From a virus, in the IMG/VR virus record IMGVR_UViG_3300030061_000336, positions 1-47,685 of that record: a stretch of 47,685 nucleotides of DNA; one strand, written 5' to 3'. A program made the translations under genes and the position numbers. Positions 5,819 to 36,831 of this stretch are shown one piece after another. Position 1 is the first letter of the stretch, and each line of letters starts with the position of its first letter. The notes beneath the pieces are model-generated. The model saw only the letters and a program-made list of their open reading frames with translations, had not been told where the DNA came from and did not search any database.

Positions 5819-6137
5819 TGGACTAATAAAATACTTTCCTGATGCACTATGCGAAGTAGCAAGAGTAAGCTACATAGGAAGTAAACAACATCACCCAGAC
5901 GAAGATATACATTGGGATAGAGAAAAAAGTAAAGATGATCTTGATGCACTTATGCGACACCTAATGGAGAATGGTATGTATGATATTGACGGAGTTCGTC
6001 ATTCTGCTAAAATCGCTTGGCGCAGCCTTGCCCATCTTCAAAAAGAAATCGAGGGAGATAAGTTTGAGGAGGGTTATGATGAGCAATTTGGTGATTACAA
6101 AATACCACACGACCAAATAATATCAGGTACAGAATGA
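5775..6137 (+). CDS. DUF5664 / dGTP_diPhyd_N-like protein
   Basis: 120 residues, all-alpha. The blocks IPLYSGLIKYFPDALCEVA, YIGSKQHHP, DALMRHLMENG and HSAKIAWRSLAHLQKEI match the DUF5664 family (named for a dATP/dGTP diphosphohydrolase N-terminal domain). A role in nucleotide-pool control is plausible but unproven. The ATG overlaps the DnaA-like gene by 44 nt, but homology with 34692-35018 (MEKDKDKRKEMPLY) supports it. Confidence 0.65.
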   Translation: MEKNKQKRKQIPLYSGLIKYFPDALCEVARVSYIGSKQHHPDEDIHWDREKSKDDLDALMRHLMENGMYDIDGVRHSAKIAWRSLAHLQKEIEGDKFEEGYDEQFGDYKIPHDQIISGTE

Positions 6138-6835
6138 TATACAACCAAGACTGTATGGAAGCTATGAAAGAGATGTCAGACAATCAGTTTGACTTGGCTA
6201 TTGTTGATCCTCCTTATGGAATTGGTGCATCAAAAGTTAGTAAAAAAAAACATTTAATAAAACAGAAAAACGGAAAGATAAGCAAGACACCTAACAACAA
6301 TTATAAAATTAAAGATTGGGATAAACGGACACCATCAGCAGAATTTTTTAAACAGATTAAAAGAGTTTCAAAAAATCAAATTATTTGGGGGGTAAATTAT
6401 TATGATTATAATTTAAATGGAGGCAGATTAGTTTGGGATAAATTGAATGATAACTGCGATCAATTTGACTGCGAAATAGCATATAATAGTATTAACAGAA
6501 GAACAGATATTATTAGATATAAATGGATAGGTATGTTTCAAGGTAAATCTATATCAAATAATTATGCTGTAGCTAATGTTCAAAATGGCAACAAAAAGTT
6601 AAATGAAAAAAGAATACACCCTACACAAAAACCTGTAAAGCTATATGAGTGGTTGCTTATGAATTATGCTAAAGAGGGAGATACAATACTTGATACTCAT
6701 TTAGGTAGTGGCTCAATAGCTATAGCTTGTCATAATTTAGGCTTTGAGCTAACAGGATACGAAATAGACAAAGAATACTTTGAAGCAGCAAAGAAACGAA
6801 TAGAACAACATAAACAACAAGGCAGACTATGGTAA
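6134..6835 (+). CDS. DNA methyltransferase with DPPY motif (N6-A or N4-C)
   Basis: 233 residues. The catalytic motif IV DPPY lies at 25-28, HPTQKP at 162-167, and the SAM-binding motif region DTHLGSGS at 187-194, giving the IV-then-I order of beta-class amino-methyltransferases. No restriction enzyme lies beside it, so it looks like a solitary phage enzyme for evading host restriction. It is absent from arm B, where ParB and glycosyltransferase genes fill the slot. Recognition sequence unknown. Confidence 0.85.
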   Translation: MIYNQDCMEAMKEMSDNQFDLAIVDPPYGIGASKVSKKKHLIKQKNGKISKTPNNNYKIKDWDKRTPSAEFFKQIKRVSKNQIIWGVNYYDYNLNGGRLVWDKLNDNCDQFDCEIAYNSINRRTDIIRYKWIGMFQGKSISNNYAVANVQNGNKKLNEKRIHPTQKPVKLYEWLLMNYAKEGDTILDTHLGSGSIAIACHNLGFELTGYEIDKEYFEAAKKRIEQHKQQGRLW

Positions 6836-6954
6836 ACAAAAAATACACCACAATACAAAGAATAAAAAGATTAGAGAATATAGTAAGCCAAATCTATATG
6901 AGTGTTGAGGTAATTAAGCAACAACTTGAGAAAAATGAATCAACAACAGATTAA
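6829..6954 (+). CDS. Small conserved helical protein (IQRIKRLENIVSQ)
   Basis: 41 residues, ATG overlapping the methyltransferase stop. It shares TIQRIKRLENIVSQ and YMSVEVIK with 35015-35137 in arm B, where it follows the DUF5664 gene directly. The methyltransferase was therefore inserted between DUF5664 and this gene in arm A, or lost in B. Predicted helical; function unknown. Confidence 0.6.
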   Translation: MVNKKYTTIQRIKRLENIVSQIYMSVEVIKQQLEKNESTTD

Positions 6955-7360
6955 ATTATTTAGCAGCAAAAAAACAGATAATTGGCAAACTCCAAAATGG
7001 CTATATGATGAATTAAATGCAGAATTTGATTTTGATTTTGATCCTTGTCCATTAAATTCAACGTTTGATGGATTACAATGTGATTGGGGAGAAAGTAACT
7101 TTGTAAACCCGCCTTATAGTAATGTAAAAGGTTTTCTGCAAAAAGCACACGAGCAATTAAATAAAGGTATAGCAAAGAAGATAGTGTTTCTAACATTTGC
7201 TAATACAGATACAAAATGGTTTCACGATTATTGTTATGGACAATGTGAATTAAGATTTATTAAAGGTAGGCTAAAGTTTTTAGATGCATCAGGGCAAGTT
7301 AAAAATTCTGCTATGCGCCCAAGTATGTTAATGATATTCAAACAAAATCCTCAAAAGTAA
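6935..7360 (+). CDS. Phage Dam-like DNA N6-adenine methyltransferase
   Basis: 141 residues from ATG 6935 (an in-frame TTG lies at 6926). The pattern of WQTPKWLYDELNAEF, DPCP (36-39), then NPPY (58-61), TFANTDTKWFHDYC and RIKGRL-like RFIKGRLKFL fits the short Dam family of phage adenine methyltransferases (PF05869-type). It overlaps the small helical gene by 20 nt. It is the second methyltransferase of the arm-A cassette; the stop is immediately followed by a CGTTATA motif. Confidence 0.8.
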   Translation: MNQQQIKLFSSKKTDNWQTPKWLYDELNAEFDFDFDPCPLNSTFDGLQCDWGESNFVNPPYSNVKGFLQKAHEQLNKGIAKKIVFLTFANTDTKWFHDYCYGQCELRFIKGRLKFLDASGQVKNSAMRPSMLMIFKQNPQK

Positions 7361-32549: not shown

Positions 32550-32823
32550 AATCGAAAATTTAAAAGACATGGAGATATGGACTGATTTACATTTTTTAAC
32601 ATCTATCGTACATAAACAAATTGAAAAAAAGAAAACAGATAATTTAGAGAAGATGTCAGATTCTTTAATTAGAATTGTATATTATTTTAAAGAATATTCT
32701 AATAACATACGATTATATAAAAAGGCATTATCAGAATATAAGTTGTCTAAAAATAGAGCAATAGAAAGGGCTAGGCGAGTTGAAAAACAATTAAATAAAA
32801 TAAAAAAACATGAAAAACTTTAA
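32539..32823 (+). CDS. Conserved coiled-coil early protein, arm B
   Basis: 94 residues from ATG 32539; a longer frame opens at 32497 but overlaps the gene before. Shares ENLKDMEIWTDLHFL, NLEKMSDSLIRIVYYFKEYSNNIRLYKKAL with 4003-4299 in arm A. Confidence 0.6.
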   Translation: MKNKIENLKDMEIWTDLHFLTSIVHKQIEKKKTDNLEKMSDSLIRIVYYFKEYSNNIRLYKKALSEYKLSKNRAIERARRVEKQLNKIKKHEKL

Positions 32824-33514
32824 AGTAGAAACAACAAAAGATTATAATAAATTTTTACATATTATAGGAAATAGAGAAATAAACAAATCTAATCTTAAAA
32901 GATTAAAAGAATCTATTAGAGAAATAGGGTTGCAAGTTCCTATATTAGTAAATGAAAACAGAGCAGTAGTGGACGGACAACATAGACTACAAGCATTAAG
33001 AGAATTGAATTTACCTGTAACTTATATTCAATCTCAAATAACAAGAGAGGAACATATTCCAAATTTACAAGTTAGTAAATTGTGGACTGCTTTAGATTTT
33101 GCAAAGAGAAATGCTGCACAAGGAGATAAAGAATGTATAAAAGCATTAAAAGTTGTTGATAATTGGCATGAATTAACAAATAAAAAATTTGCCAAAATAG
33201 TTATTTTAGAATTGTTAAATAAAGCCCAAAGTAACACACTAAAGCCGTATTTAAAAAATAAAAGCTATAAAGTTGATATAGACAATGCAATTAGAGTTTT
33301 TAACTGTCAAAATATATTAAATAAAAATAGGTCTGTAAGGTTTAACCCTTATACAGCAAAAAACATGAGAGCATTAAAAAAATTAAACAAAAATATGAAA
33401 GGTTTGAAATATAAAGTAATAGAAAAATTTAACAAACATTATTTAGATTCTTTTGCTTCTGGTCAGGAACAATATAATTATTTAAAAGATTTATATAAAA
33501 AATATGACAGATAG
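32810..33514 (+). CDS. ParB-like protein 1, arm B only
   Basis: 234 residues. N-terminal ParB-type domain (about 15-75): REINKSNLKRLKESIREIG, VPILVNENRAVVDGQHRLQALREL, with DGQHR (55-59) matching the CTP/DNA-contact GERR-like motif of ParB/Srx proteins. The rest is helical and basic. No ParA partner, so not a partition system; could be a DNA-binding or nuclease-type ParB. Absent from arm A. Confidence 0.6.
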   Translation: MKNFKVETTKDYNKFLHIIGNREINKSNLKRLKESIREIGLQVPILVNENRAVVDGQHRLQALRELNLPVTYIQSQITREEHIPNLQVSKLWTALDFAKRNAAQGDKECIKALKVVDNWHELTNKKFAKIVILELLNKAQSNTLKPYLKNKSYKVDIDNAIRVFNCQNILNKNRSVRFNPYTAKNMRALKKLNKNMKGLKYKVIEKFNKHYLDSFASGQEQYNYLKDLYKKYDR

Positions 33515-34691: not shown

Positions 34692-35018
34692 ATGGAAAAA
34701 GATAAAGATAAAAGAAAAGAAATGCCACTATATAGGGGATTAATAAAATACTTTCCTGATGCACTATGCGAAGTAGCAAGAGTAAGCTACATAGGAAGTA
34801 AACAACACCACCCAGAAGAAGATATACATTGGGATAGAAATAAAAGTCAAGATGATTTAGATGCACTTATGCGACACCTAATGGAAAATGGTATGCACGA
34901 TATAGACGGAGTAAGACACAGTGCAAAAATAGCATGGAGAGCATTAGCACACCTACAAAAAGAAATAGAGGGTGATAAATACCACCCCACAGACCACATA
35001 ATAGCAGGTACAGAATGA
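34692..35018 (+). CDS. DUF5664-like protein, arm B
   Basis: 108 residues, MEKDKDKRKEMPLYRGLIKY; nearly identical to 5775-6137 through RHLMENG and HSAKIAWRALAHLQKE, shorter at the C-terminus. Start is 1 nt after the previous stop, whereas arm A overlaps by 44 nt. Confidence 0.65.
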   Translation: MEKDKDKRKEMPLYRGLIKYFPDALCEVARVSYIGSKQHHPEEDIHWDRNKSQDDLDALMRHLMENGMHDIDGVRHSAKIAWRALAHLQKEIEGDKYHPTDHIIAGTE

Positions 35019-35137: not shown

Positions 35138-35151
35138 CGTTATATAAATAT
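35138..35151 (+). promoter_or_regulatory. CGTTATA-type motif before ParB-glycosyltransferase cassette
   Basis: CGTTATATAAATAT fills the entire 14-nt gap before ATG 35152. Two bases longer than the usual spacing. It begins right after a stop, as at 7361. Confidence 0.5.
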
Positions 35152-35778
35152 ATGAAAGCTAACAAAATAAAAGTAAGTAAGTTAAAACCTAATGAAAATA
35201 ATCCTAGAGTTATTAAAGGATATAAATTTGAAAAGTTAGTTAAGAGCATACAAGAGTTTCCTGAAATGTTAAAGTTGAGACCAATAGTTGTAGATGAAAA
35301 CAATATTATTCTAGGTGGCAACATGAGGTACAAAGCAGCAGTACAGGCAGGGTTAAAAGAAGTTTACGCAATACAAGCAGATGATTTAACAGAAAAACAA
35401 AAACAAGAATTTATAATAAAAGATAATGTTGGTTTTGGTGAGTGGGATTGGGATAGTTTAGCGAATTCATGGGAAGTGGAAAGGTTAGAAGATTGGGGGG
35501 TTGATGTTCCGATATTTGATAAAATAGATTCTATGGAAGAAGAAGAAGAATTGGAAATACCACAATCTGTACAATTAGAGCCACCGAAAGAATATGTTTT
35601 GATAATGGCTGAGCCGAATAGTGTAGAATGGGAACAATTAAAAGAAATGTTAAAATTAAAAATGGTCAGAAGAGGTGGATATAAAAAAGGAAGTGCTTTT
35701 GATTCAGTAAGTTTAGAAAGGGTTTTATGGTTTGATGATTTTAAAAAAAGAATAGATGTTAATAGCAGTACCAAGTAA
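35152..35778 (+). CDS. ParB-like protein 2, modification-cassette type
   Basis: 208 residues. ParB N-terminal domain (about 5-95): KLKPNENNPRVI, KLRPIVVDENNIILGGNMRYKAAVQAG (GGNMR 55-59), VYAIQADDLTEKQKQEFII, then WDWDSLANSWEVERLEDWGV. ParB proteins of this DNA-modification type have been noted next to base-hypermodification enzymes. The last 23 nt overlap a glycosyltransferase-like gene. Absent from arm A. Confidence 0.65.
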   Translation: MKANKIKVSKLKPNENNPRVIKGYKFEKLVKSIQEFPEMLKLRPIVVDENNIILGGNMRYKAAVQAGLKEVYAIQADDLTEKQKQEFIIKDNVGFGEWDWDSLANSWEVERLEDWGVDVPIFDKIDSMEEEEELEIPQSVQLEPPKEYVLIMAEPNSVEWEQLKEMLKLKMVRRGGYKKGSAFDSVSLERVLWFDDFKKRIDVNSSTK

Positions 35779-36475
35779 AGGCAGAGCGGGTTTAACATCT
35801 ACAAACAAGATATTGCCTAACATGTGTACTTTCTTTATACCAGAAAGCGAATATCATCAATATAAAGGTTTGGTTAAAAATATAGTTTGTGTACCAAAAG
35901 AAGTCAGAGGAATAACGCCAACAAGAAATTGGATATTAAAAAATACTGATGAAAAATGGGTTGTAATGTTAGATGATGATGCAAAACATGTTGGATATAA
36001 TTTTTTGGATAAAAGAAAAACTAAAAAAATTGAAATAAGAGATGAGGGGTTTTGGGTTGAAGAATTTTTGAAATATTTTGACTTAACAGAGCAACTAGGC
36101 TATAAAATATGGGGAACAAGAACAGAAAGCAGCCCAAGAGGTACATACCCATATAAACCAATACTCACTAGAACTTATGTAACAGCTTCGTTAATGGGTA
36201 TTATAAATGACGGAGAATATTATTTTGATGAAAACTTTATTGTAAAAGAAGATTATGAAATATGTTTAAGACATATAAAAGATAAAGGGGGTATATTAGG
36301 TATAAGATATTTACACTGGGAAAATGACCATTGGATTAAAAGTGGTGGTTGTAAAGATTATAGAACAATTGGTATTGAAAAGAAAGCAATAAAAGATTTA
36401 ATAAAATTATACCCTAATATGATTTCCCAAGTAAAGAGAAAAGCTAATGAATTTACAATTAAATTAAATTTATAA
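35756..36475 (+). CDS. TET-associated-type glycosyltransferase (TAGT-like)
   Basis: 239 residues. MLIAVPSKGRAG start, RGITPTRNWIL, then VVMLDDDAKHVGY with the DDD nucleotide-sugar site (73-75), and KEDYEICLRHI, fit a GT-A fold of the TET/JBP-associated glycosyltransferase type that adds sugars to modified bases. No TET/JBP or dUTP/dCTP-modifying enzyme is seen in the window, so the acceptor base, if DNA, would come from elsewhere. Surface glycan transfer is an alternative. Arm B only. Confidence 0.55.
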   Translation: MLIAVPSKGRAGLTSTNKILPNMCTFFIPESEYHQYKGLVKNIVCVPKEVRGITPTRNWILKNTDEKWVVMLDDDAKHVGYNFLDKRKTKKIEIRDEGFWVEEFLKYFDLTEQLGYKIWGTRTESSPRGTYPYKPILTRTYVTASLMGIINDGEYYFDENFIVKEDYEICLRHIKDKGGILGIRYLHWENDHWIKSGGCKDYRTIGIEKKAIKDLIKLYPNMISQVKRKANEFTIKLNL

Positions 36476-36831
36476 TGAACAAAACTGAACACCATAAAAA
36501 AGCATTATTAGAAGCGTTAGAAAAATCATTAGGAGTTGTTACAACAGCTTGTAAAAGAGCAGAGGTTGGAAGAACAACTTATTATGATTGGTATAATAAT
36601 GATGAGGATTTTAGGAAAAAGGTAGATGATTTACAGAATGTTGCTTTAGATTTTGCAGAAAGTCAATTACATAAACAAATATCAGAAAATTCAACGCCTG
36701 CAACTATATTCTATTTAAAAACTAAAGGTAAGAAAAGAGGTTATGTAGAAAGACAAGAAATAACAGGGGCAGAGGGAGTGCCAAACGCTTTTCAAATTGA
36801 AATCATTGACAAAACCGAAGATACAGACTAA
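36475..36831 (+). CDS. Terminase small subunit, HTH type
   Basis: 118 residues: KALLEALEKSLGVVTTACK, AEVGRTTYYDWYNNDEDFRK (helix-turn-helix), ALDFAESQLHKQISENSTPATIFYLKTKGKKRGYVER. The phBC6A51-like small terminase pattern. Different from the KREGAGRK protein in arm A. Start overlaps the glycosyltransferase-like stop by 1 nt. Confidence 0.65.
   Translation: MNKTEHHKKALLEALEKSLGVVTTACKRAEVGRTTYYDWYNNDEDFRKKVDDLQNVALDFAESQLHKQISENSTPATIFYLKTKGKKRGYVERQEITGAEGVPNAFQIEIIDKTEDTD

Follow-up and report, generated by a model that had tools for sequence, protein, structure and literature searches.

The window, that is, the whole stretch of DNA analysed here, is the IMG/VR virus record IMGVR_UViG_3300030061_000336 (47,685 bases). 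It contains two related phage units, which start at approximately positions 40 (left) and 29,006 (right) and are 74-89% identical in blockwise DNA comparison; the right unit is incomplete. In the right unit, a gene for a ParB-type protein is followed by one for a glycosyltransferase of the TET-associated glycosyltransferase (TAGT) family. The two genes overlap by 23 nt, and the TAGT gene also overlaps the gene for the terminase small subunit. This is the arrangement described in the original prediction, which had placed overlapping ParB-type and glycosyltransferase genes ahead of terminase. The relevant features are as follows.

34692..35018, + strand: conserved dGTP_diPhyd_N-like gene, 108 aa (Pfam PF18909, 42.7 bits, cut-off 27); left boundary of the pre-terminase slot and slot marker
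35138..35144, + strand: CGTTATA motif, 7 nt ahead of the ATG of ParB; a probable promoter element of the phage, a function inferred from its copy number and spacing
35152..35778, + strand: ParB/Srx-fold protein, 208 aa, with a ParB_N head (residues ~4-91) and a C-terminal domain (~134-200), assigned by Pfam, fold match and C-domain profile
35756..36475, + strand: TAGT family enzyme, 239 aa, with RN57-58, DDD73-75, KEDY164-167 and GG197-198, assigned by Pfam PF20691, phrog_842 and invariant motif columns
36475..36831, + strand: terminase small subunit-like gene (phrog_4044, 33.6 bits); right slot boundary, overlapping the TAGT stop codon
36797..37969, + strand: terminase large subunit, a listed ORF with uncertain start codon, assigned by sequence and position; the order is kept in relatives
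6134..6835, + strand: N6/N4 DNA methyltransferase in the corresponding slot of the left unit (Pfam N6_N4_Mtase, 80.5 bits; homologous flanks)
6926..7360, + strand: Dam-type DNA methyltransferase, also in the slot of the left unit (Pfam Dam, 76.2 bits)

The CGTTATA motif occurs 13 times in the window, compared with 4.9 copies expected. At seven sites (8829, 15552, 18137, 20420, 37992, 45066 and 46953) an ATG follows it at a distance of exactly 5 nt, as would be expected of a promoter box that drives leaderless late transcripts. The cassette had been described as led by a motif of its own; the copy is indeed present at 35138, but with so many others in the window it is not exclusive to the cassette. 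A second, distinct ParB-like protein (phrog_12305) is encoded at 32810-33514, 1.6 kb upstream of the pair. The window joins its left unit, of about 29 kb, to the second one at a homologous position, and another IMG/VR contig of 53 kb (L343/L351) carries the slot marker twice, about 26 kb apart. Such double-unit records may be chimeric assemblies or genuine tandem phages.

The glycosyltransferase matched the Pfam TAGT family (PF20691) with 49.1 bits, well above the curated cut-off of 27.5, and its best PHROG was phrog_842, annotated 'beta-glucosyl-HMC-alpha-glucosyltransferase' (71.8 bits). The predicted resemblance to TAGTs is thus borne out by the profile searches. The DDD motif that had been pointed out corresponds to D73-D75, which is among the residues invariant in 36 of 36 aligned TAGT sequences, together with S7, R10, R57-N58, K164, D166-Y167 and G197-G198. 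A wider alignment of 17 TAGTs retained the R-N, D-D, D and G columns, with SDD in a second type of the enzyme (type B, see below). For TAGTs of the window type, dN/dS was 0.04-0.11 (three of seven comparisons had unsaturated dS), indicating strong purifying selection and hence that the TAGT match is not due to chance. The AlphaFold model was of low confidence (pLDDT 64), and a Foldseek search with this weak model yielded nothing significant in the PDB (E ≤ 0.001); the GT2 enzyme TarP, which has the GT-A fold, came up only at E 0.5. An identity as a surface-glycan transferase, which would have spoken against the original prediction, was also considered: no such Pfam family matched the protein at E ≤ 1, and the best matches were phage TAGTs.

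The ParB-type assignment is likewise supported, as the protein reached 28.7 bits against Pfam ParB_N (curated cut-off 26.3). The best PHROG of the head was phrog_498, 'DNA methyltransferase' (105.7 bits), at the N-terminal part of that profile. Annotations of phrog_498 include 'DNA modification methylase', and its heads are fused to phage DNA methyltransferases. The structural model matched ParB structures bound to CTP analogues (best match 7bnr, E 9e-6), and on the basis of this model the head is assigned the ParB/Srx fold, while the predicted structure of the C-terminal domain was of poor quality. Within the 208 aa of the protein, Pfam detected no helix-turn-helix (HTH) family at E ≤ 1. As no HTH domain is recognisable, it is unproven that the head recognises DNA.

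The conservation of the pair was assessed in 324 TAGT loci, which were collected from IMG/VR scans with four TAGT seeds, from named phages and from two MAG contigs. A ParB gene was found upstream of TAGT on the same strand in 304 of them, 291 times within 30 nt. Eight loci lacked a ParB just upstream, and another 12 were cut off within 600 nt upstream; ParB therefore adjoins TAGT in 304 of the 312 loci that are not cut off, often overlapping it. Among the eight ParB-less loci is that of a T4-like Vibrio phage (L092) whose genome also encodes a member of the thymidylate-synthase family. The pair spans phages of Bacteroidota, Firmicutes, Actinobacteria, Proteobacteria and Archaea. The order ParB, TAGT, terminase was observed in Streptococcus phage Javan291, Lactobacillus phages JNU_P11 and c5, E. 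coli 613R10, Nocardia phage NTR1 and Porphyromonas 005b, and also in Haloarcula phage HHTV-2, where several genes separate TAGT from terminase. In Microbacterium phages of the genus Quhwahvirus, the gene after the pair contains a UDP-glucose dehydrogenase central domain (61.1 bits), consistent with a nucleotide-sugar donor. For Jayden, the glycosyltransferase itself had no Pfam match at E ≤ 0.1, and its assignment rests on tblastn (E 2e-5).

A search for the host among cellular genomes yielded only the two MAG contigs. Among complete E. coli genomes, it was present in 885 of 5426 (at least 80% query coverage) and, in the genomes looked at, was located next to trkG in prophages of the Rac type. 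Many genomes have its ParB annotated as ynaK. In K-12, ynaK continues straight into ydaY, TAGT and terminase being deleted, whereas E. coli strain 7/2 retains the ynaK-type ParB, TAGT and terminase. The ynaK gene of K-12 is thus the stump of a ParB from a ParB-TAGT pair.

We then compared the two parts of ParB with TAGT across 31 window-type loci. Mean distances were 0.29 (TAGT), 0.27 (ParB C-domain) and 0.46 (N-terminal head), and the distances of the C-domain correlated with those of TAGT far better (0.71) than did those of the head (0.32). Three loci (L036, L056 and L073) have heads only 26-36% identical to that of the window, but C-domains that are 62-77% and TAGTs that are 66-85% identical. 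Faster evolution of the head could account for part of its lower correlation, but hardly for these three heads. Type-B ParBs, conversely, have a head in common with the window type (up to 69% identity), and the alignment reached the end of the tail in only 4 of 60. A profile of the C-domain matched 80 of 80 window-type loci and both MAG contigs, but 0 of 63 type-B loci and 0 of 60 loci found with the JNU seed. Javan-type loci gave weak matches (E 0.05-0.2) in 6 of 74, and the one stray match among Rac-seed loci lay in an unrelated frame. As judged from these comparisons, ParB is modular: its C-domain follows the type of TAGT, while its head is exchanged. Most simply, the tail would be the docking part for the enzyme.

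The position of the pair gives a further indication of its role. Where the right unit has ParB and TAGT, the left unit has the N6/N4 and Dam methyltransferases. Sister loci were fetched with the left slot-marker gene, and among the best 80 of 126 matched, 71 held the slot marker and a recognised terminase small subunit. In these 71 loci, the slot contained an ORF labelled as DNA modification in 50 cases, was empty (<300 nt) in 13, had only unlabelled ORFs in seven and no called ORF in one. Counted per locus, the labels were N6/N4 methyltransferase (31), C5 methyltransferase (15), Dam (6), Mom (5), ParB (4), TET (3), TAGT (3) and ADDT (1); labels were assigned per cluster on the basis of one or a few representatives. 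The slots of L363 and L381 hold ParB, a distant TAGT (in L363 20.2 bits in Pfam, under the cut-off of 27.5, and 33.5 bits for phrog_842) and a Tet_JBP protein (41.0 bits, cut-off 34.9). Between the slot marker and terminase, L349 (3638-7470) encodes ParB, Tet_JBP (100.5 bits), a glutamine amidotransferase, a GNAT protein, the amino acid:DNA transferase ADDT (67.1 bits, cut-off 26.2) and a P-loop kinase-like protein, and this slot looks like a complete base-hypermodification operon headed by ParB. Mom-family proteins (PF25680; 113.5 bits in L348) occupy the slot in L327, L348, L355, L371 and L386.

Since the pair sits where related phages keep DNA-modifying enzymes, it probably glycosylates phage DNA. 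Three features point to phage DNA as the acceptor, namely the family of the enzyme, a slot with exchangeable contents and a ParB head of the methyltransferase type, and the proposal that the cassette serves DNA modification gains support from the methyltransferases, the Mom and TET proteins and the amino acid:DNA transferase found in the slot of sister phages. This acceptor is inferred from family and context only, as there are no nucleoside or sequencing-signal data. We regard ParB-TAGT as a phage DNA glycosylation module without an oxidase of its own, in which ParB acts as the recruiting head, and assign this reading a probability of about 0.7. According to this model, TAGT would act just before packaging and move a sugar from a nucleotide-sugar donor to a base in the double-stranded DNA of the phage itself. 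ParB would be the companion subunit, its C-terminal domain docking TAGT and its exchangeable N-terminal ParB/Srx head carrying the complex to DNA, and the sugar might shield phage DNA from host nucleases; transfer, docking, recruitment and protection are all inferences. The late position beside terminase fits a modification before packaging, which, by inference, would spare the host in a lysogen.

The acceptor base would probably not be oxidised by the phage beforehand, because no oxidase or hydroxymethylating enzyme was found in the phage and many phages have the pair without one. The absence of a base oxidase nearby, already stated in the original prediction, holds: a TET profile had no match in the window and PF12851 (Tet_JBP) none in its record. 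Three proteins of type-B loci were the basis of the TET profile. Of the 69 loci obtained in the scan with the type-B (L363-type) TAGT plus L381, 57 had ParB and TET, four were cut off upstream and had TET, four had TET elsewhere in the fetched stretch and four had none. TET is thus nearby in 65 of 69 type-B loci, compared with 0 of 80 window-type loci and 0 of 229 loci from the three other TAGT seeds. PF12851 was absent from all 51 longer records searched (the pair is confirmed in 44, one is cut off where TAGT begins and six have no ParB) and from 10 additional window-type records; counting window-type records alone, none of 17 had it. Among 12 type-B and related records, which served as positive control, eight had it. 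The thymidylate-synthase family (PF00303), to which dCMP hydroxymethylases belong, was present in one of the 51 records, that of the ParB-less Vibrio phage, and a C5-methyltransferase (PF00145) also in one, the window-type record G004. The 35.8-kb window-type record G002 (L061) has 420-nt ends that are 97.9% identical, so this genome is in effect complete, and it contains no Tet_JBP, thymidylate-synthase or C5-methyltransferase family. Taken together, the absence of a recognised base-preparing enzyme in the window type is well supported.

A Pfam survey of G002 gave 21 families over 46 ORFs, including a GT7-type glycosyltransferase and DUF1599 ('nucleotide modification associated domain 1'). 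In L061 and L063 (G002 and G003), both genes sit away from the pair. They were rejected as a third enzyme of the module, as they occur in only two and three of 21 records, respectively, and are absent from the window.

The pair could be a self-sufficient two-protein system, in which ParB-docked TAGT glycosylates an unoxidised base of double-stranded DNA directly, for example at an exocyclic amine, and the N-terminal heads are swappable targeting modules. We put this forward only tentatively, and we know of no phage DNA glycosyltransferase for which direct sugar transfer to an unoxidised base has been reported. If true, such a system would extend across bacterial and archaeal phages and, in Rac-type prophages, about one-sixth of complete E. 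coli genomes. A serious possibility, though short of even odds, is that the pair depends on a base with a hydroxyl group, supplied by an unrecognised phage enzyme, the host or a co-infecting phage; it would then be an ordinary second-step TAGT system whose first step was lost or distributed. The near-constant company of TET at type-B loci and the many unlabelled genes in phage genomes are in line with such a base, and the characterised T6 TAGT extends a pre-existing sugar (PMC13216743). However, Tet_JBP was absent from the 51 longer records searched, thymidylate-synthase-like enzymes were confined there to the ParB-less Vibrio phage, and C5-methyltransferase to a single record. The case of E. 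coli is telling, because its genomes frequently carry the pair but, to our knowledge, the host has no hydroxymethylated base. The data are compatible with both direct action and a handle provided by an unrecognised enzyme, and do not decide between them.

It is unlikely that TAGT instead glycosylates a protein, such as a virion or packaging protein, with ParB as a mere neighbour. TAGT does adjoin terminase in many phages, glycosyltransferases have many acceptors, and activity on DNA has not been demonstrated for the window type. On the other hand, the pair swaps within its slot with DNA methyltransferases, Mom, TET and ADDT, it is linked to a ParB with a co-varying C-domain, and those TAGT family members that were tested act on DNA, according to two reports (PMC13390438, PMC13216743). 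That ParB is a plasmid-like partition protein or a nuclease unrelated to the glycosyltransferase, as database names ('ParB-like partition protein', 'nuclease') and the interpretation of phage ParB as partition in PMC7326821 and PMC3918226 would have it, is very improbable in view of the missing HTH family, the close pairing with TAGT and a C-domain that follows the enzyme type.

A DNA glycosylation module consisting of ParB and TAGT without an oxidase would be a variant of already known modification systems. The T-even enzymes belong to the same Pfam/PHROG family, and the RN, DDD, ED and G motifs are in common with the TAGT of the T4-like Vibrio phage. As described in PMC13216743, the T6 beta-glucosyl-HMC-alpha-glucosyltransferase is a TAGT member (PF20691) and a DNA glucosyltransferase; T-even TAGTs attach a second sugar to hydroxymethylcytosine that is already glucosylated, and they travel with an alpha- or beta-glucosyltransferase. 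In contrast, no thymidylate-synthase-family enzyme was found in the window type, and a ParB partner is present. Sister phages with ParB, TAGT and Tet_JBP in the same slot resemble the TET/JBP-TAGT systems, from which the window type differs in lacking the oxidase and in having another type of TAGT and ParB C-domain. Related ParB heads accompany DNA-modifying enzymes both in the methyltransferase fusions of phrog_498 and next to CmoX carboxymethyltransferases, where the function of ParBc is unknown (PMC12783734). Here, however, the partner is a separate glycosyltransferase, apparently joined via a dedicated C-domain. Chromosomal and plasmid ParBs (Spo0J, Noc, KorB) share the fold of the N-domain, but the window ParB has no detected HTH domain and has an enzyme gene alongside.

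Iyer et al. (NAR, 2013) reportedly predicted a role of ParB and TAGT-type pairs in phage DNA modification. Our literature search found no paper tying ParB and a TAGT-type glycosyltransferase to phage DNA (hyper)modification. Solitary TAGTs without a known acceptor were described in 288 of 753 phage genomes (PMC13216743), and TAGT is present in T6-like Durham phages (PMC13390438); ParB is not mentioned in the available sections of either source. A ParB-bearing temperate phage, with or without a TAGT, was reported to be without modified bases (PMC3918226). Two open points meet at this locus, namely the solitary TAGTs without a known acceptor (PMC13216743) and the role of ParB beside DNA-modifying enzymes (PMC12783734). 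A large set of TAGTs for which no partner had been recognised proves to be paired with ParB, whose tail is specific for the enzyme type and whose head is exchanged. As the pair is frequent in E. coli, deleted in K-12 and modular, both points can be tested by expression of the two genes. Possible natural deletions of pair members exist as well (L094:90-938 and records H126/H127): Lactobacillus phage LL-Ku kept TAGT with no annotated ParB ahead of it, and phage Ld25A kept ParB with a TAGT match of only 45 residues.
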